This document shows, piece by piece, positions 1 through 14,328 of a DNA stretch of 26,959 nucleotides (positions within the stretch are counted from its first letter, which is position 1; every line of letters begins with the position of its first letter). A program made the position numbers and the translations under genes. Source of the stretch: a virus; the IMG/VR virus record IMGVR_UViG_3300047494_000279, positions 1 to 26,959 of that record; one strand, written 5' to 3'. The notes beneath the pieces are model-generated. The model was not told the DNA's origin, made no database searches, and saw only the letters and a list, made by a program, of their open reading frames with translations.

Positions 1-660
1 ATGACGGAGATGCTCCCCGAACGGCTGACGCGTCTGATGCGGGAGGCCGGGTATAATCCGCGCAGCCTGTCGCTGGCCGCGTCGCTGGGCGCGACCGCGG
101 TGCGCGACATCATCGAGGGCCGGATCGCCAGCCCGCGCTACGCCACGCTGCAGGCGCTGGCGGCGGTTCTGGGCGTGCGGACCGAGGCGCTGGCCGGCGA
201 CGGCGCGCCCGTGGCGGCCGAACCGCCGCCGCCCGTCCCGTCCGCGCCGCGATCCGGCCCGGTTCAGCGCGATCTGCCGGTCTATGGGGCGGCGCAGGGC
301 GGGACCGGCGGCGCGATGCTGATCTCCACCGATACGATGCAATGGCTCGCCCGGCCGGAGCCGTTGCTGACCGTGCGCGGCGGCTATGGCGTCTATGTGG
401 TGGGCGAATCGATGAGCCCGGCCTATGAGCAGGGCGATATCGCGCTGGTCCATCCGGCGTTGCCGCCCCGGCGCGGCGCCGACGTCATCCTGATCCGCCA
501 CGACGCCGACGACGGCCGCCATGTCCTGATCAAGCGCCTGGTCGGCTGGACCGAGGATTCGTGGCGGGTCCGCCAGTACAACCCGCCGCGCGATTTCGAC
601 CTTCCCCGCGCCGAATGGCGCGAGGCCCATGCGATCGTCGGACGCTATAACGGGCGCTAA
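1..660 (+). CDS. S24-family phage repressor (HTH + LexA/CI-like peptidase domain)
   Basis: A 219-residue protein with an N-terminal helix-turn-helix-like segment (about residues 8-62) and a C-terminal S24/LexA-type domain. The peptidase serine sits in the motif GESMSP (Ser137) and the lysine of the Ser-Lys dyad in VLIKRL (Lys178). The linker at residues 70-88 is Pro/Ala-rich. Members of this family hold the lytic promoters off and are inactivated by RecA-stimulated self-cleavage. The hinge reads VYGAAQGG, so I cannot point to a textbook Ala-Gly cleavage site. The start codon is base 1 of the window, so its ribosome binding site and operators are not visible. It is the natural candidate for the prophage CI. 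It could instead be a host S24 regulator next to the prophage. Confidence 0.88.
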   Translation: MTEMLPERLTRLMREAGYNPRSLSLAASLGATAVRDIIEGRIASPRYATLQALAAVLGVRTEALAGDGAPVAAEPPPPVPSAPRSGPVQRDLPVYGAAQGGTGGAMLISTDTMQWLARPEPLLTVRGGYGVYVVGESMSPAYEQGDIALVHPALPPRRGADVILIRHDADDGRHVLIKRLVGWTEDSWRVRQYNPPRDFDLPRAEWREAHAIVGRYNGR

Positions 661-750: not shown

Positions 751-1011
751 ATGGGGGTGCGCGTGGCGATCTTGGTCGAGCCTTTCGTGGTCGAGGCGAT
801 CTGGGACCCGGAAGCCGGCGTTTGGGTTGCGCAGAGCCGCCAGATTATCGGACTCGTCACTGAAGCGCCGACCATGGAGGCGCTGCTTCAAAAACTTGAG
901 GACATCGTTCCGGTTCTGCTGGAGGCAAACGGCCAGGCGGTAGATCTGGACGAGGCTGCCTACGCGGTCACCTGGAAAACCCTGCAAACCGCCAAACTCC
1001 ATGTCCATTGA
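751..1011 (+). CDS. DUF1902 / HicB-like antitoxin
   Basis: An 86-residue protein with the DUF1902 pattern: an aromatic/acidic strand (VEAIWDPEAGVWVA), then S-x-x-I-x-GLVTEAPT, then an amphipathic helix ending in VPVLLEANG. DUF1902 is a small HicB-related fold, and its members are often found beside HicA toxins. The next gene is a HicA, which supports an antitoxin role: neutralising HicA and probably autoregulating the pair. The ATG at 751 has no clear Shine-Dalgarno; GTG at 757 or 763 is possible. A TTGACT hexamer at 705-710 could be a -35 box, but no good -10 accompanies it. I see no separate DNA-binding domain of the kind longer HicB proteins carry. Confidence 0.75.
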   Translation: MGVRVAILVEPFVVEAIWDPEAGVWVAQSRQIIGLVTEAPTMEALLQKLEDIVPVLLEANGQAVDLDEAAYAVTWKTLQTAKLHVH

Positions 1012-1205
1012 TAGCGGATTTTCGTCCGGACGTTGAGCGCAAGCTGAAAGAAAACGGCTGCTATTTTAAGCGCGCAGGCAAAGGCGATCATGCCTTTTGG
1101 TTTAGCCCGGTATCAACTCGATCATTTCCCGTCGATCACAAGATTCTGTCCCGGCGCACCGCAAACGCAATCATGAAGCAGGCGGGGATCGACCACAAAT
1201 TTTGA
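1008..1205 (+). CDS. hicA: HicA-family mRNA interferase toxin
   Basis: A 65-residue protein with the HicA double-stranded-RNA-binding-like pattern: an N-terminal helix, then KENGCYFKRAGKGDHAFW with the conserved histidine (His28), then PVDHKILSRRTANAIMKQAGI. HicA proteins inactivate mRNA, and the histidine in the G-(S/D)-H motif is the expected active residue. The start is a TTG at 1008 that overlaps the TGA stop of the upstream antitoxin gene, so translation is coupled. The antitoxin-first order is the reverse of the common hicA-hicB arrangement but is known. The pair probably stabilises the prophage or acts in phage defence; that role is inference. Confidence 0.8.
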   Translation: MIADFRPDVERKLKENGCYFKRAGKGDHAFWFSPVSTRSFPVDHKILSRRTANAIMKQAGIDHKF

Positions 1206-3728: not shown

Positions 3729-3918
3729 GGGTATAGGCGCCAGGTTAGTCAAATTTTGCCAAGAAGTCGTCCTCCCGGCGAAGGCCGGGAGCCATCTGTC
3801 CGCTATCTCCGCTGCTGGTCGATGGGTCCCGGCCTTCGCCGGGAGAACGATAGTGGGGTTGAAGCTTTAACATTCACTCCGGAGAAGCTTTATCCTAGCG
3901 CCTATGCGGGGTAGGGGT
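3720..3918. repeat. 13-bp direct repeat flanking the REP unit
   Basis: GCGGGGTAGGGGT occurs at 3720-3732, across the stop codon of the coiled-coil gene, and again at 3906-3918, at the 3' end of the acyltransferase gene. The two copies bracket the inverted repeat. They could mark a duplication made when the REP unit or the acyltransferase island was inserted, or they could be chance in a G-rich context. Confidence 0.55.
3773..3844. repeat. REP-like perfect inverted repeat (18-bp arms)
   Basis: TCCCGGCGAAGGCCGGGA (3773-3790) and its exact reverse complement (3827-3844) are separated by 36 bases. Each arm is itself a short hairpin (CCCGGC...GCCGGG), so the unit can fold several ways. CCCGGCGAAGGCCGGG-type palindromes are, to my knowledge, frequent intergenic repeats in sphingomonad genomes. 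It sits between the convergent ends of the 3039 gene and the acyltransferase, where it may act as a bidirectional transcript end. Confidence 0.8.
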
Positions 3919-4964
3919 TACGCGCGCGCTTCGCGGGCGGGCAGATATCTGACCGCCCGCGCGGTCAGCCAGCGCCGCGCGGGAAGTTCGATGGCGGTGT
4001 AGGTCAGATACGATGTTGCCACGACGGCGACGATCGTCGCCGACCAATAGAGCGCCATCGAATTGTAGCCGAGTTTCTGCAACAGAAACTTGGTCAGCAG
4101 CAAAATCGGGATCTGAGTCAGGTAGATCGAGTAGGAAATCTTGCCAAAGAAATATGGAATCGGCGCCGACATCAATCGCACGATCGGGGCGTCGCTGTAA
4201 ACGCAACCGCCGATGATCAGAATCATCATGGGGATGACGATGATATCCACATGAACAAGATTGGCGAGAATAATACCGCCCCCGACCGTCAGCAGCGCCG
4301 GGTTGGACCCGAACGGGCGGAGCCGGTCCCGCCAGCGATAGATCAGCATCCCGGCGCCGAATTCGGCGAGACAGCGGATCAACGGGAGCGGACTATGGCT
4401 CATGGATATGCCCAGGCTCCATTGATTTTCTTTGATTATGTAGGTTAACGCTAAGACGATCAGAATACACGTCGCGATCGCCCGTTTCGTCCCCCGGAGA
4501 GTGAGCCAGGCGAACCCCGGAAACAGGATGTTCGCCGCCCATTCGGTTGAAATCGACCAATCCGGCGGATTTATGGATGTGCCAGATGACAGGAAGATGT
4601 CCCAACGGTGAACCAAAGCCGCCTCGGTCAATACATAAAACCACCAAGGCAGTTGATATCCGGTGAGGAGCGCAACCGCGATGCTGAAACACAATAAGGC
4701 CCAATGGAGCGGGAAAAGCCGCGAGAACCGTTTTGATATGAACATCGCGTATCTGTACGGCTCGTATCTCCCCGCCATGTCCCTCCCATGCGCCGCGCCA
4801 AGAATGAAGCCGGAGAGTAAGAAAAAGAAATCTACTGCTAGGTAACCGCGATCGATTACAGGTATATTTAAATGGTCAAATCGTGACCATGCATTTAAGT
4901 GAAATAATAACACCCATATGGCGAATGTGCCGCGCAAAGATGTTAGAGATTGAATTTCTTTCAT
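3918..4964 (-). CDS. Membrane acyltransferase (acyltransferase-3 family), probable surface-polysaccharide O-acyltransferase
   Basis: A 348-residue integral membrane protein with about ten hydrophobic segments. Family-3 acyltransferase signatures are present: the N-terminal LTSLRGTFAIWVLLFHL (Arg and the catalytic-type His), then GYLAVDFFFLLSGFILG, then KRFSRLFPLHW. Members transfer acetyl or other acyl groups to sugars of O-antigen or exopolysaccharide at the inner membrane. It points against the phage genes, has its own promoter, and is clearly less GC-rich than its neighbours, the marks of a moron acquired by transfer. The divergent neighbour is a tail fibre with an esterase domain, so both may concern the same surface polymer. 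The substrate cannot be read from sequence. Confidence 0.85.
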   Translation of the reverse strand: MKEIQSLTSLRGTFAIWVLLFHLNAWSRFDHLNIPVIDRGYLAVDFFFLLSGFILGAAHGRDMAGRYEPYRYAMFISKRFSRLFPLHWALLCFSIAVALLTGYQLPWWFYVLTEAALVHRWDIFLSSGTSINPPDWSISTEWAANILFPGFAWLTLRGTKRAIATCILIVLALTYIIKENQWSLGISMSHSPLPLIRCLAEFGAGMLIYRWRDRLRPFGSNPALLTVGGGIILANLVHVDIIVIPMMILIIGGCVYSDAPIVRLMSAPIPYFFGKISYSIYLTQIPILLLTKFLLQKLGYNSMALYWSATIVAVVATSYLTYTAIELPARRWLTARAVRYLPAREARA

Positions 4965-5044: not shown

Positions 5045-7345
5045 ATGACAATCGTCTATTCGCAGAATTTCGAATTGACCTCGGTAGGTTCGCTTCCGTC
5101 CGGCTGGACCGATATCGTCGGGTCCGCCTTGGTCACTGCGTCAAACTCCGTCTCAGGCTCGAACGCGCTGACATTGGGCGCTTCGGACGGCAACATCGTT
5201 TTGTGCAAATCGGCGACGGCGCTCGCCGACATGGAGGTGCGCTACGATGTCAATTATCAGGCCTATTTCATCGGCGTCGTTCTGCGCGCAGCGTCCGACA
5301 ACTCGTCCAATTATACGCTGATCCCATCGACAGGTGGTCTTGGCGTCTGGAACGTCTATAAACGCGTCTCCGGGACATACACGCAGATCGGATCGATTTC
5401 TGGAATCACACTGGGAACGGTCGGCGTGGGCGGGCTGTTCAGCGTGCGGGCCAGGATCCAGGGATCGACGATATATTTCAAGTTGTGGTCATACGGGACC
5501 ACCGAGCCGGCCTCGTGGAGCGGGACGATCACTGATTCCGCGGTGACCGCGGCAGGATTCTTTGGATTCTACAACAATTCGAGTGGTGCGGGGAACGCTA
5601 CCATCGACAACGTCACACTAGACAACTTGGTCGTCGGCTCGCTGACCGCCGGAACCTCATCGTTGTCTGGCGTCAGCTCGACCGCGGCGACGATTACGAA
5701 TACCGGCGCATCGGGCGGAACTGCGCCGTATTCTTATCAATGGTACCGTTCGACTTCTTCCGGATTCACCCCGGGATCGGGAACTATCGTTTTCGGTGCA
5801 ACAAGCCTGACGCTGAACGATAGCGGGCTCGCCTCATTGACGACCTATTACTACGTGCTGATCGCGACCGATAGCGCCAGCGCAACAGCGGCGGCGGCGC
5901 AGCTGGCGGTGACGACATCAGCGCCCGCGTCACTTGCCAACGGAGCACTGACCGCCTCCAGCGTCGGATCGACAACCGCGATGGTGATGGTTGCGGGCGC
6001 GTCGGGCGGAACCTCGCCCTACTCGTATCAATGGTATCGATCAACCACGTCCGGGTTCACGCCAAGTTCGGGAAACCTCGTCTCCGGCGGAACGGCGACA
6101 GTCCTAAACGACAGCGGGCTGAACCCATCAACCACCTATTATTACAAGAATGTTGCGACCGATCACGTAGGCGCGACCTCGATCTCTGCGCAGCTTGTGG
6201 TGACGACGTCGGCCAGCCAGACGAACATTACGGTGACAAACGCGGCGCTTTTTTGGTCGCCAGGAAATTGGGACCATCTGATCGCGGGTGCATTCGGCGT
6301 CGTGATCGACACGATGCAGGCTACAGCTCCGGGCGCATATATGAAATTCTGCTGCACTGGAACTGTCAACCTGTCGATCGGGCTAGACACATCGACCTTG
6401 GGTTTGTTCCCATCGGGAGATTTTCCGATCTTGCGCTACTCGATCGACAGCGCATCCTTCGTTGATGTTCAGCTTACCGCCGGACAGACAACACTCTTGC
6501 TGTCTTCGGCGCTGGCCAGCGGCACAACCCATTCGGTCGAAGTTTATTATTTGATGGCCACGCTGACGGAGGGCGATTCCTGGGGATCGAGCGGCGTCAG
6601 TCCGACCAACGTCGTGAGGATCAATGGGATCGCGATCGACAGCGGCGGTTCGGTATCTGCGCCGACCCTGCGGCCCAAGCGGATGCTGGTGTTCAGCGAC
6701 TCGATCGGGGAAGGCGAGCATGTCTTCGTAAGCGGGGCGAACGACTCGACCCAGGCGTTTCCGGCGCTCGTTGCCCTGGCGCTGGCAGCGGAGGTCGGCC
6801 AAATCTGCTACGGTGGCCATGGATGGCGGGCGACGGCGTCAGGCAACGTTCCAGGGCTGACGATTTCCTATCAATATCTCAGTGTCGGCAGGTCGCGCAA
6901 TTTTTCGAGCCTCGATTATGTAATTATCGTTGAAGGCGGCAACGACGCGCGCGCCGGAACGGCAGGCGCAACGATCCAATCCGACTGTCAGACGGTGTTG
7001 ACCGCGTTACGCGCCGCGTGCGGATCGGCGACGAAACTGATCGTCGCTGTCGAATGTATGGGGTCATACTCCGCCAATCTCTCGGCGGCCGTCACCGCCT
7101 ACAAGGCAGCGTCAGGCGATAACGAAGTCTTTTTCACCGATGTCTCCGGCCTGTTTCCTGCCGGAGTCTTCAGCCTAACCTTCGGCGTGTCGACGCAATG
7201 GACTTATGACGGCGTTCACCCGCTCGTCTATGGCCAGGGGCGGTTTTCGGCGGCTTTGGCGTCTGGAATTGAGGCTGCGATCAATTCCGGTTCCGGCCCC
7301 TCAACAATCGCCGGGTATAGCCGGGCGCGGGTTTCGAATGAATGA
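5045..7345 (+). CDS. Tail fibre / receptor-binding protein with C-terminal SGNH (GDSL-like) esterase domain
   Basis: A 766-residue modular protein. Residues 1-195 look like a concanavalin/LamG-type beta sandwich (YSQNFELTSVGSLPSGW start). Residues 199-292 and 297-391 are two tandem FN3/Ig-like repeats, each with GGT(A/S)PYSYQWYRST and a TYYY strand. Residues 395-545 form another beta-rich segment. Residues 548-750 are an SGNH hydrolase with all four blocks: FSDSIGEG (Ser553), the Gly block YGGHGW (590-593), GGNDA (Asn633) and DGVHP (Asp722, His725). Such domains in fibres usually deacylate surface glycans during adsorption. AGGA precedes the ATG. It lies between the terminase and portal genes rather than at the tail-gene end, beside a divergent acyltransferase, and its GC is lower than the phage core. 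Confidence 0.82.
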   Translation: MTIVYSQNFELTSVGSLPSGWTDIVGSALVTASNSVSGSNALTLGASDGNIVLCKSATALADMEVRYDVNYQAYFIGVVLRAASDNSSNYTLIPSTGGLGVWNVYKRVSGTYTQIGSISGITLGTVGVGGLFSVRARIQGSTIYFKLWSYGTTEPASWSGTITDSAVTAAGFFGFYNNSSGAGNATIDNVTLDNLVVGSLTAGTSSLSGVSSTAATITNTGASGGTAPYSYQWYRSTSSGFTPGSGTIVFGATSLTLNDSGLASLTTYYYVLIATDSASATAAAAQLAVTTSAPASLANGALTASSVGSTTAMVMVAGASGGTSPYSYQWYRSTTSGFTPSSGNLVSGGTATVLNDSGLNPSTTYYYKNVATDHVGATSISAQLVVTTSASQTNITVTNAALFWSPGNWDHLIAGAFGVVIDTMQATAPGAYMKFCCTGTVNLSIGLDTSTLGLFPSGDFPILRYSIDSASFVDVQLTAGQTTLLLSSALASGTTHSVEVYYLMATLTEGDSWGSSGVSPTNVVRINGIAIDSGGSVSAPTLRPKRMLVFSDSIGEGEHVFVSGANDSTQAFPALVALALAAEVGQICYGGHGWRATASGNVPGLTISYQYLSVGRSRNFSSLDYVIIVEGGNDARAGTAGATIQSDCQTVLTALRAACGSATKLIVAVECMGSYSANLSAAVTAYKAASGDNEVFFTDVSGLFPAGVFSLTFGVSTQWTYDGVHPLVYGQGRFSAALASGIEAAINSGSGPSTIAGYSRARVSNE

Positions 7346-8078: not shown

Positions 8079-8561
8079 ATGTCGGGATGGCAGATTGCGC
8101 TGGGGCTGGGGCTCTACGGGCCGCAATCGCTCCTGCTGGACGGGTTGGGGGCGGCGTCGGGGCAGGTCGCCACGGCGCCGCCGGCGGGGCTGCTCAACCC
8201 GCGCCGGACGCTGACCCCCGTCTTCATCTCCGGCTATGCCGGGCGGGATTTTCCCGCCCTGTCGGTCGCGGCCGACGCCGTGTTCGCAATCGACCTGGCG
8301 CCGGCGCTGGATTCAGGCGACACGCTCGACGCCGGCTCGCTGTCGGTCGATTTCTTTCCGGTCGATGTCCCGGCGCCCGGCTACGCCGCCGCTTTGGACG
8401 GGCCGCCGGTCCTGATCGGCGCGGTCGCCGCGCAGGCGATCGGACAGCCGCCGGCCGCGCGCTATGTGCTCGGCTTCACCTGCGGCACCGCCGCCGGGCG
8501 GCGGGTCGCGCTCTATTCCTTCTTCAACGCGATAGGATTGCCCGATGCCGCCACAGGGTAG
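8079..8561 (+). CDS. Conserved-looking hypothetical phage protein
   Basis: A 160-residue protein starting at ATG 8079 behind GCGGAGGGG. The N-terminus (SGWQIALGLGLYGPQSLLLDG) is hydrophobic and Gly-rich, and the rest alternates short strands (LTPVFISGYAGRDFPALSV, then SLSVDFFPVDVPAPGY). Its last 17 bases overlap the portal gene, so the two are in one transcription unit. I do not recognise a domain. Its place, between the fibre-linked protein and the portal, suggests a virion or assembly protein. Confidence 0.6.
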   Translation: MSGWQIALGLGLYGPQSLLLDGLGAASGQVATAPPAGLLNPRRTLTPVFISGYAGRDFPALSVAADAVFAIDLAPALDSGDTLDAGSLSVDFFPVDVPAPGYAAALDGPPVLIGAVAAQAIGQPPAARYVLGFTCGTAAGRRVALYSFFNAIGLPDAATG

Positions 8562-9891
8562 ACTGACGCCGCTGACCGGGGCCGGGTTCCTGGGGCGCCT
8601 TGCGAGCGGCATGCGCTACGCCATACGCGGCGTCGCGCCGGATGACTGGTTCGGCCCGCTGCAGCCGATCGCGCCCGCCGACCCGGCGCTGACCGAGCCC
8701 AGGCGGTTCGATTATCTGTCCGGCGTCAACATCCAGTACCAGCCGCGCGGCGAGGAGGGCGTGTCCTTCGCGCAGATGCGGGCGCTGGCGGAACGCTATG
8801 ACATCCTGCGGCTGGTGATCGAAACCCGCAAGGATCAGGTCGAACGCCTGCGCTGGAACATCCGGCCGAAAGGCGGGCAGGATGGCCGCGCCGCCGCCGC
8901 CGCCGGGAGCGACCCGCGGGTGGCGACGCTGGAGGCGTTCTTCCGCAAGCCGGACGGCGTCCATAGCTGGGGCGCCTGGCTGCGCATGCTGCTGGAGGAC
9001 CTGCTGGTGATCGACGCCCCCGCGCTGTACAAGGCGCGCAGCGTCGGCGGCGACCTGCTGGCGCTGGAGCCGGTGGACGGGGCCACGATCAAGGTGCTGA
9101 TCGATGCGCAGGGCCGCGCCCCGGCGCCGCCCGATCCCGCCTATCAGCAGGTGCTGCACGGCGCGCCCAAAGGCGATTTCGCGCGCGACGAGTTGATCTA
9201 CCTGCCGCGCAATCCGCGCACCGCGAAAATCTATGGCTTCTCGCCGGTGGAGCAGATCATCACGACTGTGAACATCGCGCTGCGCCGCCAGATGGTGCAG
9301 CTGCAATACTTCACCGAGGGCAACATGCCCGAGGCGCTGATCGGCGTGCCGCAGGGCTGGACGATGGATCAGATCGCGCAGTTCCAGTCCTATTGGGACA
9401 CGATCCTCACCGGCAACATCGCCGAGCGCCGGCATGCCCGCTTCGTGCCGGCCGATTTCCGCTATCAGCCGATGCGCGACCCGCCGCTGAAGGACGATTT
9501 CGACGAGTGGCTGGCGCGGATCGTCTGCTACGCCTTCTCGACCTCGCCCGCGCCCTTCACCCGTCAGATGAACCGCGCCACCGCCGACAACGCCCAGGCG
9601 ATGGCGCTGGAGGAGGGGCTGGCGCCGCTGATGCTGTGGGTCAAGGCGCTGGTCGAACAGGTGATAGAGGAAGATTTCGGCTGGACCGACCTGGAATTCG
9701 AATGGGTCGACGAAAAGGCCGCCGACCTTCTGCAGCAGGCGCAGATCACCGACATGAAGGTCAAATCGGGGCTCAAGACCATCAACGAAGCCCGAGCCGA
9801 AGCCGGCCAGGACCCGATCCCCGGCGGCGACGCCCCCCTCCTCTACACCGCCGCCGGCGCCGTCACCCTGGCGAGCGTCAGCGGCGGATGA
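8545..9891 (+). CDS. Phage portal protein
   Basis: A 448-residue protein with typical portal features: DYLSGVNIQYQPRG near residue 53, RLVIETRKDQVERLRW (about 91-106), LEDLLVIDAPALYKAR in the core, the ELIYLPRNPRTAKIYGFSPVEQ segment, and the C-terminal TISDMK-like region (AQITDMKVKSGLKTINEAR). The portal forms the dodecameric ring at one head vertex, docks the terminase and passes DNA. The ATG overlaps the previous gene by 17 bases. The gene order portal, protease, capsid is the standard HK97-like head module, here broken by inserted PEP-CTERM genes. The length is normal. Confidence 0.9.
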   Translation: MPPQGRLTPLTGAGFLGRLASGMRYAIRGVAPDDWFGPLQPIAPADPALTEPRRFDYLSGVNIQYQPRGEEGVSFAQMRALAERYDILRLVIETRKDQVERLRWNIRPKGGQDGRAAAAAGSDPRVATLEAFFRKPDGVHSWGAWLRMLLEDLLVIDAPALYKARSVGGDLLALEPVDGATIKVLIDAQGRAPAPPDPAYQQVLHGAPKGDFARDELIYLPRNPRTAKIYGFSPVEQIITTVNIALRRQMVQLQYFTEGNMPEALIGVPQGWTMDQIAQFQSYWDTILTGNIAERRHARFVPADFRYQPMRDPPLKDDFDEWLARIVCYAFSTSPAPFTRQMNRATADNAQAMALEEGLAPLMLWVKALVEQVIEEDFGWTDLEFEWVDEKAADLLQQAQITDMKVKSGLKTINEARAEAGQDPIPGGDAPLLYTAAGAVTLASVSGG

Positions 9892-10921: not shown

Positions 10922-11707
10922 TCAGGCCGCGCGGCGGCGGCGCAGCATCAGCATCCCGCCGAGGCCCGTCAGGAACAGGCCGAGCGTCGCCGGCTCCGGA
11001 ACCTGGATGCCGCTTTCGGCGGTGACGTAGCCGACCGTGTGGTTGTCGGACTCATATCCGCCGACGGTCGGGTTCTCGGTGAAATGGATGCTGTCGAAAC
11101 TGCCGGCCAGATCGTAGAAATTGACGAACACGTATTGCTGGCCGCTGTTCTGACCGGCATAGGGCGAATTGGGGTTGCCGCAATAGGCGTTGGAGCTCGA
11201 ACATTTGCCCAGCGCGGCGATGACCTGGGTCGGCGTGAAGTCGAACACGTCGACGCCGTTCTTGTAGAACGACACGTCGTTCCCGGCGTCGAGCGCCGAC
11301 AGCCAGAAGCCAAAGTAATTGACGCCGGTGGCGAGCGTGGTCTTCAGGTTGACCTGGTATCCGGCGGTCGTGAACGTGACGCCGTAATTGCCGGTCCCGC
11401 CAGCCCCGCCAAACTGGCCGGCGGAACTGATCTGGACGTTGTTGTAGGTCCCGGTGATCGTCCCGCCGGTCCCGTAGTTGGTCGTAAACGTTTGGCCGGT
11501 TCCGACCGTGCGGCTGTTGAAGTTCTCGACGCCGACGGTGCAGCTTCCCGCCCCCAGATTGGCGCACAAACCGGAGGTGTTGGCGTTCTGAACGCCCGCG
11601 GCCTCATAGGTGATGTTGAATGCATCCGCCTGCGCCGGGGCGGCGCGACCGATGGCGATGCAGCCGCAAAGGACGGCGAGCGAGCGAACGACGAGAGAGC
11701 GGTTCAT
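10922..11707 (-). CDS. PEP-CTERM sorting-domain surface protein, copy A
   Basis: A 261-residue exported protein. It has a signal peptide (residues 1-28, cut near PAQA-DAF), a beta-rich body, and a C-terminal tripartite tail: VPEPATLG, a hydrophobic helix, then RRRRAA. In PEP-CTERM proteins an exosortase in the inner membrane recognises this tail, and the protein goes to the surface or exopolysaccharide matrix. The body has NYFGFWLSALDAGNDVSFYK, YVFVNFYD and GYESDNHTVGYV, which resemble, from memory, the Npun_F0296-type exosortase-dependent proteins. It is the downstream gene of a tandem pair with a 12-base gap; GAAGGA precedes the ATG. No exosortase lies in the window, so processing must rely on host genes elsewhere. 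It opposes the phage genes. Confidence 0.88.
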   Translation of the reverse strand: MNRSLVVRSLAVLCGCIAIGRAAPAQADAFNITYEAAGVQNANTSGLCANLGAGSCTVGVENFNSRTVGTGQTFTTNYGTGGTITGTYNNVQISSAGQFGGAGGTGNYGVTFTTAGYQVNLKTTLATGVNYFGFWLSALDAGNDVSFYKNGVDVFDFTPTQVIAALGKCSSSNAYCGNPNSPYAGQNSGQQYVFVNFYDLAGSFDSIHFTENPTVGGYESDNHTVGYVTAESGIQVPEPATLGLFLTGLGGMLMLRRRRAA

Positions 11708-11719
11708 GCGGGATATCCT

Positions 11720-12508
11720 TCAGATCGCGCGGCGGCGGAGCATCAGCAGCCCGGCCAGACCGGTCGCGAACAGGGCGAGAGTCGCGGGCTCCGGAACCTG
11801 GATGCCGGACTCGGCGGTGACGTAGCCGACCGTGTGGTTGTCCGATTCATAGCCGCCGCCGTAACCGTTGGCCTCGGAAAAATGGATGCTGTCGAAGCTG
11901 CCGGCCAGATCGTAGAAGTTGACGAAGACGTATTGCTCGTTGCTGTTCTGGCCCGCGAAACCCGGATTGGGGTTGCCGCAATAGGCGTTCGTGCTGGAAC
12001 ACGTCCCCAGCGCGGCGATGACTTGGTTCGGCGTGAAATCATAGACATCGACGCCGTTCTTGTAGAACGACACGTCGTTCCCGGCGTCGAGCGCCGACAG
12101 CCAGAAGCCGAAATAATTGACGCCGCTCGACAGCGTGGATTTGAGGTTGACCTGATAGCCGCCACTGCTGTTGAAGGTCACGCCGTAATTGCCGGTTCCG
12201 CCGGCGCCGCCATACTGGTCCGCCGTATTGATCTGGGCGTTGACATAGGTGCCGGTGATGGTCCCTCCGGTGCCGTAATTGGTCGTAAACGTTTGGCCGG
12301 AGCCGGTCGGACGGCTGTTGAAGCTTTCGGTGCCGACCGTGCAGGTTCCCGCCCCCAGATTGGCGCACAGCGCGGTTGTGTTGGCGCTCTCGGCCTTGGC
12401 CGGCTCATAGGTGATGTTGAACGGATCGGCGTGCGCCGTCCCGGCCAATACGCCGCCGGCCAGAAGGGCGCCGCTGAAGGCGATGGTGTGAGCGAAGCGT
12501 GAGTTCAT
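11720..12508 (-). CDS. PEP-CTERM sorting-domain surface protein, copy B
   Basis: A 262-residue paralogue of the gene just downstream, similar along its whole length, so the pair arose by tandem duplication. It has a signal peptide (MNSRFAHTIAF..., cut near AHA-DPF), the same beta body with paired cysteines (CANLGAGTC and CSSTNAYC), and the tail VPEPATLALFATGLAGLLML then RRRAI. The ATG at 12508 is chosen because it starts the signal peptide and lies 39 bases below a sigma54 promoter; the open frame itself runs further upstream. Differences from copy A cluster in loops (for example NGYGGGYES versus PTVGGYES), suggesting surface diversification. The role in the host is unknown: envelope, matrix or aggregation are the usual inferences for this class. 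Confidence 0.88.
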   Translation of the reverse strand: MNSRFAHTIAFSGALLAGGVLAGTAHADPFNITYEPAKAESANTTALCANLGAGTCTVGTESFNSRPTGSGQTFTTNYGTGGTITGTYVNAQINTADQYGGAGGTGNYGVTFNSSGGYQVNLKSTLSSGVNYFGFWLSALDAGNDVSFYKNGVDVYDFTPNQVIAALGTCSSTNAYCGNPNPGFAGQNSNEQYVFVNFYDLAGSFDSIHFSEANGYGGGYESDNHTVGYVTAESGIQVPEPATLALFATGLAGLLMLRRRAI

Positions 12509-12834
12509 GATCGCGTATCCCGTCTTTAGTCGTACGCCGAAGGAAATGCACGGACCGTGCCAACTTGAAACATATATCCCGATCAAAGAGCTAGCCGAGA
12601 CATACCCCTTAAGGCGGATATTACTGTAAAGTACCGCGACACAAAAGGGCCAGGCCGGCGGGATCGCCCGAGGTCTGACCGCGCCCTGTCGCGCCGCGTC
12701 CCCACCCGAATTATCGCGAACCCTCGACTTCCGGCCGGTGAAGCCCGCCATCCGGAACATTGCAACGCGCCCTTGGGCAAGGCCCTGCGCGGCGGCTGCG
12801 TCCGCCCGCCTCCCTTCGACATGGAGCCTGTCTG
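12509..12834. other. Divergent intergenic region inside the head module
   Basis: These 326 bases separate the leftward PEP-CTERM pair from the rightward capsid gene. The left part holds the sigma54 promoter and an imperfect palindrome, TACTGTAAAGTA (12622-12633), 60-86 bases above it, that could bind an activator. The right part (12640-12820) is GC-rich with no clear sigma70 promoter. GGAG at 12823-12826 serves the capsid ATG. How the capsid and later genes are transcribed across this leftward insert is not evident. Confidence 0.6.
12547..12562 (-). promoter_or_regulatory. Sigma54 (RpoN) promoter of the PEP-CTERM pair
   Basis: The minus strand reads TGGCACGGTCCGTGCA. This matches TGGCACG-N4-TTGCA at all positions but one and has the required GG-N10-GC spacing. 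Initiation about 12 bases downstream would leave a 25-30 base leader to the ATG at 12508. PEP-CTERM genes in several bacteria depend on RpoN with the PrsK/PrsR two-component system, so this site fits known biology. It also reads as the palindrome GCACGG-A-CCGTGC, so a repressor site cannot be ruled out. Confidence 0.75.
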
Positions 12835-14328
12835 ATGAACGGTAACACGACCGCCGAAACCCTGGCGCTGGTCAAGGACGCGCTGGCCAACGGCCGCCAC
12901 GATGCGCTGTCAAAGGCGATCACCACCGCCGCCGGCCTGATCGCCTACGACCTTCAGCCCTCGGCCAAGAATCTCTACCCGGCCGCCACGCCGATCCGCA
13001 ACGTGCTGCCGCGGGTCGGCGGCGGCACGGGCACGGCCACCAACTGGCGGCAGGTCAACGCGATCATCGGCTCCGGCTGGGACGCGATGGGGTGGGTTCC
13101 CGAAGGCCAGCGCTCCGCGCGCATGAGCTACAGCACCTCGACCCGGTCCGCCTCCTACGCCACGGTGGGCGAGGAGGATTCGGTGACCTTCGAAGCGGTC
13201 TCCGCGGCGCAGGGTTTCGAGGATATTCAGGCCACGGCCACGATGCGGCTGCTGCAGAAGATGATGCTGAAGGAGGAAAACGCGTTCCTTGGCGGCAACG
13301 GCTCGCTGCAACTGGGGACCCCGGCCGCCCCGGCGCTGTCGGCCGGCGGATCGGGCGGAACTCTGCCGGCGGCGACGTATTCGGTGGTCGCGGTCGCCCT
13401 GACCTACGAAGGCTTCCGCAATTCCAGCCTGTCGGCCGGCGTCGCCACGTCAAAGGCGATCACCGGCGCGGACGGGGCCAGCTTCACATTGAACGGCGGT
13501 TCGTCCGCCGCCTCCGCCAGCGCCGCGCAGGCGGTCGCCTCTGGCCAGACCCTGTCGGCCTCGGTCACGCCGGTCATCGGCGCGGTCGGCTACGCCTGGT
13601 ATGTCGGCGCGGCCGGGGCGGAGAAGCTGCAGGCGATCACCACGGTCAACAGCGCGGCGTTCTCCGCCCCGCTCGCGACCACGGGCCAGGCGGCGTCGGC
13701 GATCACCGGCGACAGCTCGGCCAATCCCGGCCTCGCCTATGACGGGCTGCTGACGTCCGCGCTCAAATCCGGCTCCGGCGCCTATGTCAACTATCTGGCC
13801 ACAGGGACGGCGGGAACGGGCACGCCGCTGACCGCGTCCGGCCGAGGCTCGGTCAACGAGATCGACCTGATGCTGCAGAAGATGTGGGATTTGTACGAGG
13901 TCAGCCCTACCGTCTTCTACGTCAACAGCCAGGAACAGCGGAACATCACCAACAAGGTGCTGAACAGCGCCTCGGGACCCTTGCTGCGCTATGCGACCGA
14001 CGGCAAGGACCCGTTCGCCATCGTGGCCAACGGCGTGGTCGAATATTACTACAATCCGTTCGCGCTCGACGGCGGCTACAAGATCCCGGTCAAGATCCAC
14101 CCGTTCGTGCCGCCGGGAACCATCGTCGGCTGGTCGGAAAACCTGCCGGCGCAGTACCAGTCCAGCAACGTGCCGAACGTCGCCGAGGTGAAGACGCGGC
14201 GCGATTACTACCGGATGGACTGGCCGCTCAAAACCCGCGCCTACGAATTCGGCGTCTACGCCGAGGAGGTGCTGGCGGTCTATGCGCCCTTCGCGATGGG
14301 CGTCATCGCCAATATCGGCAACGGCTGA
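12835..14328 (+). CDS. Major capsid protein with an inserted Ig/FN3-like domain
   Basis: A 497-residue HK97-fold-type capsid protein, starting at ATG 12835 behind GGAG. The N-terminal part (1-160) has the TAAGLIAYDLQPSAKNLYP and LPRVGGGTGTATNW segments and the helix EDIQATATMRLLQKMMLKEENAFLGG. The C-terminal part (about 300-497) has LMLQKMWDLYEVSPTVFYVN, a loop, and the final strand LKTRAYEFGVYAEEVLAVYAPFAMG. Between them, residues about 162-288, rich in Ala, Gly, Ser and Thr, contain a beta-strand pattern (AATYSVVAVALTYEGFRNSS, then VGYAWYVGAAG) that reads as an Ig/FN3-like insertion, probably displayed on the capsid surface. The N-terminal residues may be removed by the protease. Confidence 0.88.
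   Translation: MNGNTTAETLALVKDALANGRHDALSKAITTAAGLIAYDLQPSAKNLYPAATPIRNVLPRVGGGTGTATNWRQVNAIIGSGWDAMGWVPEGQRSARMSYSTSTRSASYATVGEEDSVTFEAVSAAQGFEDIQATATMRLLQKMMLKEENAFLGGNGSLQLGTPAAPALSAGGSGGTLPAATYSVVAVALTYEGFRNSSLSAGVATSKAITGADGASFTLNGGSSAASASAAQAVASGQTLSASVTPVIGAVGYAWYVGAAGAEKLQAITTVNSAAFSAPLATTGQAASAITGDSSANPGLAYDGLLTSALKSGSGAYVNYLATGTAGTGTPLTASGRGSVNEIDLMLQKMWDLYEVSPTVFYVNSQEQRNITNKVLNSASGPLLRYATDGKDPFAIVANGVVEYYYNPFALDGGYKIPVKIHPFVPPGTIVGWSENLPAQYQSSNVPNVAEVKTRRDYYRMDWPLKTRAYEFGVYAEEVLAVYAPFAMGVIANIGNG

Follow-up and report, generated by a model that had tools for sequence, protein, structure and literature searches.

Two genes for exported PEP-CTERM proteins lie inside the head module of a phage in the stretch of DNA analysed here (the window, 26,959 bases, an IMG/VR virus record without an attached host genome), and the question is how they came to stand there and what they might do for the phage or its host. 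Proteins sorted by exosortases have so far been treated as host envelope or matrix proteins. The open reading frames and family models bore out the earlier note's description of two complete, paralogous PEP-CTERM genes between the protease and the capsid gene, on the opposite strand (Table 1). The start of pepB was taken as the ATG at 12508, and a longer mechanical ORF reaching 12760 was not taken as a gene. The start of pepA lies 12 bp past the stop of pepB in the same direction, so the two have the look of a two-gene operon with pepB first, and the stops of pepA and of the protease gene face each other tail to tail 6 bp apart. The name "major capsid protein" rests on gene order, size and place between the protease and connector genes, because PHROG 13692 itself is labelled "unknown function". 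The CI/S24-type repressor at the contig head suggests that the phage is temperate. Between the terminase and portal genes the phage carries a second antisense surface-modifying cargo, the OafA-like O-acyltransferase gene, which stands in low-GC DNA beside a large SprB-repeat/GDSL-lipase gene, and this interval forms a second cargo spot. ORFs resembling the O-acyltransferase were seen by eye in two other contigs (L201 and L207), and small overlapping genes like HicB/HicA toxin–antitoxin genes adjoin the repressor. The Rfam search of the window gave no match.

Table 1. Predicted genes and regulatory elements of the window and the evidence for each.
Feature	Position	Strand	Evidence or remark
CI/S24-type repressor	1-660	+	phrog_4 transcriptional repressor, E 1e-21
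HicB/HicA-like small overlapping genes	751-1205	+	by eye
OafA-like O-acyltransferase	3918-4964	-	Acyl_transf_3, E 2e-25; phrog_6705 O-antigen acetylase, E 1e-11
SprB-repeat/GDSL-lipase protein	5045-7345	+	
Portal protein	8545-9891	+	Phage_portal, E 3e-19; phrog_2662, E 1e-82
Prohead protease	10058/10091-10915	+	Peptidase_S78, E 4e-8; PHROG head maturation protease
pepA	10922-11707	-	261 aa, complete; NF050191, E 7.7e-45; TIGR02595, E 1.8e-7
pepB	11720-12508	-	262 aa, complete; NF050191, E 8.6e-44; PF07589, E 1.8e-7
Predicted sigma-54 -24/-12 promoter	12547-12563	-	TTGGCACGGTCCGTGCA; 38 nt ahead of pepB ATG
Predicted PrsR enhancer box (Haft motif 1)	12625-12641	-	TGTCGCGGTACTTTACA; published motif, TTTACA
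Structured leader of capsid gene	12728-12834	+	alignment with relatives (about 24 sequences, A3), consensus fold
Major capsid protein	12835-14328	+	phrog_13692, E 7e-103

The PepA and PepB proteins are 75% identical. They had been said to differ mainly in loops, which is partly right, the greatest divergence being in the signal peptide and the first third of the protein. Both have an N-terminal signal peptide by eye, with a hydrophobic segment and an AxA site (GTAHA|D and APAQA|D), and both end in a PEP motif, a hydrophobic helix (predicted at 241–261) and a basic tail. These tails exceed the cut-offs of TIGR02595 and PF07589. The NCBIfam model NF050191 for Npun_F0296 exosortase-dependent surface proteins, whose curated cut-off is 29 bits, was matched end to end with 153 bits by PepA and 149.6 bits by PepB. 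By these family models, both proteins are members of the PEP-CTERM and Npun_F0296 families. The Npun_F0296 homologues that were found elsewhere are chromosomal and 41–50% identical, whereas the phage copies carry an extra CANLGxGxCTVG segment. The modelled fold was of moderate quality (pLDDT 74) and had no match in the PDB with E < 0.001, and the single BFVD match was a giant-virus collagen-like fragment with a TM score of 0.30; the fold was rejected as a clue to function.

The comparison of the protease–capsid junction with and without the pair, which the earlier note had proposed, was run across relatives, and pep, empty and ferritin-like versions were all seen. In other metagenomes, too, IMG/VR contigs carry pep genes at this junction, two copies in L008, one each in L014 and L096, and further ones in the partial contigs L009, L010 and L089. 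The three partial contigs are of the L008 phage type and L096 is of the L014 type, so these carriers, six of roughly 40 contigs in the close clade, make up three lineages together with the window. PepB of the window pairs best with PepB of L008 (80% amino acid identity). PepA shows 73.5% identity to the L008 protein in the corresponding position, close to its 76% identity to L008 PepB, and because this resemblance is about equal, some conversion between copies is likely. In L014, the silent divergence of the pep copy (dS about 1) is about twice that of the phage backbone (dS about 0.5–0.7), which suggests a separate acquisition or exchange of the cargo in that lineage. The dN/dS ratios, calculated by the Nei–Gojobori method with our own script, were 0.21–0.45 for the pep copies, 0.10–0.13 for the capsid gene and 0.22–0.31 for the protease gene. 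These values show purifying selection on the pep copies and on the head genes beside them.

Relatives with capsids 84–91% identical hold other things at this place. A gap of 124–160 bp without a predicted gene was found in L017, L034 and L042, an antisense ferritin-like gene occupies the junction at 15 loci, and other small genes are present in some relatives. More distant phages (capsid about 68–70% identical) have a longer protease at the junction and no such cargo. The protease–capsid junction is thus a cargo site, as sister phages are either empty there or carry the ferritin-like gene, and its empty, ferritin-like and pep versions show what marks a moron, namely a dispensable gene at a variable site that sister phages lack. 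The ferritin-like protein has about 220 aa (EETRHAFFFKRH...EESGHL) and is encoded on the minus strand in L012, L015, L016, L019, L023, L030, L033, L036, L039 and others; in IMG/VR it was found in the window's phage clade, as judged from the records whose context was examined. On the capsid side, the structured leader of the capsid gene is kept in almost all cargo-bearing relatives, with the cargo on its 5′ side. Hairpins are predicted in this leader, one stem having compensatory changes (GC in 10 and AU in 7 sequences), and the pairing covers the GGAGCC Shine–Dalgarno region; Rfam has no match for it. RNA control of capsid synthesis by the leader is possible.

The upstream of pepB contains a predicted regulatory site of a published type. 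In proteobacteria, the sigma-54 motif upstream of PEP-CTERM genes is itself preceded, across a spacer of 62.8 ± 10.6 nt, by a 17-nt motif with TTTACA at its end (PMC1569441), an arrangement that correlates with the response regulator PrsR and the kinase PrsK (Haft et al, 2006; PMC1569441). These motifs 1 and 2 are defined there by a 17-nt box ending in TTTACA, a spacer of 32–92 nt, a GG-N10-GC promoter and a distance of 23–221 nt from promoter to start codon (PMC1569441), and the window has all of these with a 61-nt spacer and the ATG at 38 nt. The element TTGGCACGGTCCGTGCA agrees with the sigma-54 consensus at 11 of 12 positions and is the only one scoring at least 10 on either strand of the whole window; scores of at least 11 are expected 0.0014 times per 300-bp upstream region. 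When the upstream DNA of the three lineages was aligned, two boxes were conserved, the sigma-54 element and the enhancer, and the spacer from TGTCGCGGTACTTTACA to the promoter was exactly 61 nt in all three. The sigma-54 element is also present in L008 and L014, and the enhancer box of L014 keeps only its TTTACA half well. Looser scans gave scattered weak matches in the sister phages L015, L022 and L038 (both motifs scoring 9) against a background of 0.15 matches per simulated window, and only strong matches were therefore trusted. A sigma-70 promoter was also sought and rejected, the scan having given one weak match inside pepB that was no better than shuffles. A sigma-54 score of at least 10 was found upstream of 8 of the 15 resolved chromosomal PEP-CTERM genes in the bacterial order that hosts sister prophages. 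The complete published PEP-CTERM regulatory site, here predicted upstream of a phage gene, is new in this study, and given its enhancer, spacer and promoter, the pepB-pepA operon appears to be plugged into the host PrsK/PrsR–RpoN regulon. The likeness to the chromosomal system (PMC1569441) extends to the signal peptide, to a C-terminal PEP-CTERM domain that passes the TIGR02595 cut-off, to the TTTACA box, to the spacer of about 61 nt and to the -24(GG)/-12(GC) promoter, but the window genes lie on a phage, inside its head module, and the phage records carry no exosortase. A comparable case is PepA of Aquincola tertiaricarbonis, the product of a chromosomal PEP-CTERM gene with a -24/-12 promoter (TGGCAC/CTGCTT), shown by experiment to be RpoN dependent, and the protein promotes flocculation (PMC9850573); the role of the phage proteins is, by contrast, a predicted one.

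The earlier note had supposed a sphingomonad host, and this was not supported. Across 401 Sphingomonadales genomes, no match to the capsid exceeded 65% identity, and the sorting tails differ: all nine sampled sphingomonad PEP-CTERM tails are of the PEPxxW type (PEPxxWAM/L) as against PEPATL(A/G)LF in the phage, and the phage copies have PEPATL, PEPASL or PEPSSI. Tails of these latter types also occur in a small alphaproteobacterial order (43 genomes) that hosts sister prophages and whose MAGs carry capsids 67–69% identical to that of the window. The closest capsid among one genome for each of 84,980 species is 69% identical. Because the best capsid match in Sphingomonadales is 65% and the tails resemble those of the other order, a non-sphingomonad alphaproteobacterium seems the likelier host. 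The sorting signals look like dialects, PEPxxWAM/L in Sphingomonadales versus PEPxxLALLG in the order of G001–G005 and G018. Clear Npun_F0296 homologues were found by tblastn in 7 of 351 Sphingomonadales genomes at 41–50% identity, where they are chromosomal and adjoin housekeeping genes; unlike these, the phage copies have a non-sphingomonad sorting tail. No pepB homologue at E < 0.001 was found in the sister-prophage order (43 genomes) or in 180 genomes of the order of a Caulobacteraceae MAG. The exosortase has to be supplied by the host, as a search for it on the phage records (TIGR02602) found none. Among ten sphingomonad genomes in which pepB has a PEP-CTERM match (seven of which hold clear homologues), nine have an exosortase, as do 16 of the 43 genomes of the sister-prophage order, including four with such prophages.

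PEP-CTERM genes were also found on other phages. A motif-based scan for PEP-CTERM tails in 2.9 million viral contigs gave 45 further contigs, of which 41 (31 distinct) encode a protein that begins with a signal peptide that can be recognised and ends in the tail, and all ten proteins tested from these contigs passed TIGR02595. Several of these genes adjoin terminase, portal, virion or endolysin genes and are therefore phage genes and not contamination. The unrelated contigs include L246, L251, L252, L263, L270, L272, L282, L286 and about 33 more; many of their PEP-CTERM proteins form one family (ILTFGQTSGSNTITAT...), and L246 and L251 have two such genes in tandem. At looser thresholds, the enhancer and sigma-54 site was present in 4 of the 31 distinct contigs, compared with 13 of the 1,635 ORFs in a control set that also contained pep genes. 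In the unrelated contig L256, an enhancer, 61 nt and a sigma-54 element precede the PEP-CTERM gene (TGTCGGCCCTTCTTACA ... GTGGCACGCCTCATGCT). The ten tested proteins had no PHROG match, the INPHARED search gave no match for pepB or two other phage PEP-CTERM proteins, and pepB is absent from 50,697 GenBank phage records. No description of phage-borne PEP-CTERM proteins was found in the papers searched, a set whose scope leaves out most subscription papers. As PEP-CTERM genes sit on many unrelated phage contigs, phage-borne exosortase substrates appear to be a cargo type that recurs.

The pepB-pepA operon is best read, with a probability of roughly 0.72, as lysogenic-conversion cargo (a moron) that uses the host PEP-CTERM/exosortase system and PrsR/sigma-54 control. 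The variable junction, its occupation by pep genes in three lineages, the selection on them and the regulatory site support what the earlier note had proposed of conversion through the exosortase pathway, except for its sphingomonad host, and the repressor and O-acyltransferase on the same contig were also counted for this reading. An unlikely alternative is that the pair is passenger host DNA, chromosomal PEP-CTERM genes taken up with their promoter by illegitimate recombination at a tolerant junction with no benefit to the phage. The chromosomal place of the family between housekeeping genes in sphingomonads, the host type of the promoter and the small share of pep carriers in the close clade would fit such an origin, but the genes occupy the same spot in three diverged lineages, under purifying selection and with a regulatory site of identical spacer, and other whole genes recurrently occupy the junction.

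It is quite improbable that the proteins serve the lytic side, either as virion decoration or by binding exopolysaccharide during infection, where they might act as a decoy or help adsorption. Their genes do lie inside the head module, and the fold matches, very weak and non-significant, include carbohydrate-binding modules; the strand opposite to the late genes, the own sigma-54 promoter, the signal peptide, the exosortase tail and the lack of pep genes in most sister phages all speak against this role. We give equally little credence to a decayed or domesticated prophage, or a gene-transfer-agent-like locus, that gained host genes after losing its function. A search of 24 related records, none of them complete, found no phage integrase, and the tail protein has a C-terminal domain of the Rcc01698 type, known from a gene transfer agent, but the head genes have open reading frames and are subject to strong purifying selection, the cargo varies between contigs, and a closest capsid of only 69% identity does not look like vertical inheritance of a locus. 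The other reading that the earlier note had offered, an insertion that broke the phage, is likewise at odds with intact flanking genes having dN/dS of 0.10–0.31. The window is a metagenomic contig only, and an assembly artefact or host contamination could in principle have joined a chromosomal locus to phage genes. This is refuted by several separate contigs, from other metagenomes and with pep genes 68–80% identical, in which portal, protease, pep and capsid genes are likewise contiguous, and which leave a negligible chance for an artefact; a fixed chromosomal locus is not supported either, given the same junction in these contigs.

If the operon is conversion cargo, host RNA polymerase with sigma-54, activated by host PrsR bound at the TTTACA box, is predicted to transcribe it, so that its expression would keep step with the programme by which the host makes its extracellular matrix. 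The products would be exported by the Sec pathway, held by the C-terminal PEP-CTERM helix and cut by the host exosortase, after which they would either be released into the outer surface and exopolysaccharide layer or stay anchored there. We infer the dependence on PrsR and sigma-54 and the exosortase processing of PepA and PepB by analogy with the chromosomal systems. The lysogen would change in adhesion, polymer retention or phage access, and upon induction, late transcription of the head genes, antisense to the pep operon, would shut it down; both of these effects we infer. Like morons such as the O-antigen acetylases of temperate phages, the operon is an independent transcription unit that sits at a variable junction, has the opposite polarity and encodes a surface-related product. 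Unlike them, it needs a host exosortase and a predicted host two-component/sigma-54 regulon, where those morons have a simple constitutive promoter.

These findings suggest that infection probably leads to a remodelling of the host surface by way of a pathway that belongs to the host. We lean slightly towards the broader view that environmental phages have taken up exosortase substrates on repeated occasions as a class of surface-remodelling cargo, some, the window's clade among them, with a host PrsR/sigma-54 site, and the wider set of phage PEP-CTERM genes would then represent many independent cases. The lineage dialects of the PEP-CTERM tail might help to predict the hosts of phage-borne copies. 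PEP-CTERM proteins as phage cargo link prophages with flocculation and the biofilm matrix, and if the reading is true, a prophage would add surface proteins precisely when its host builds the extracellular matrix.
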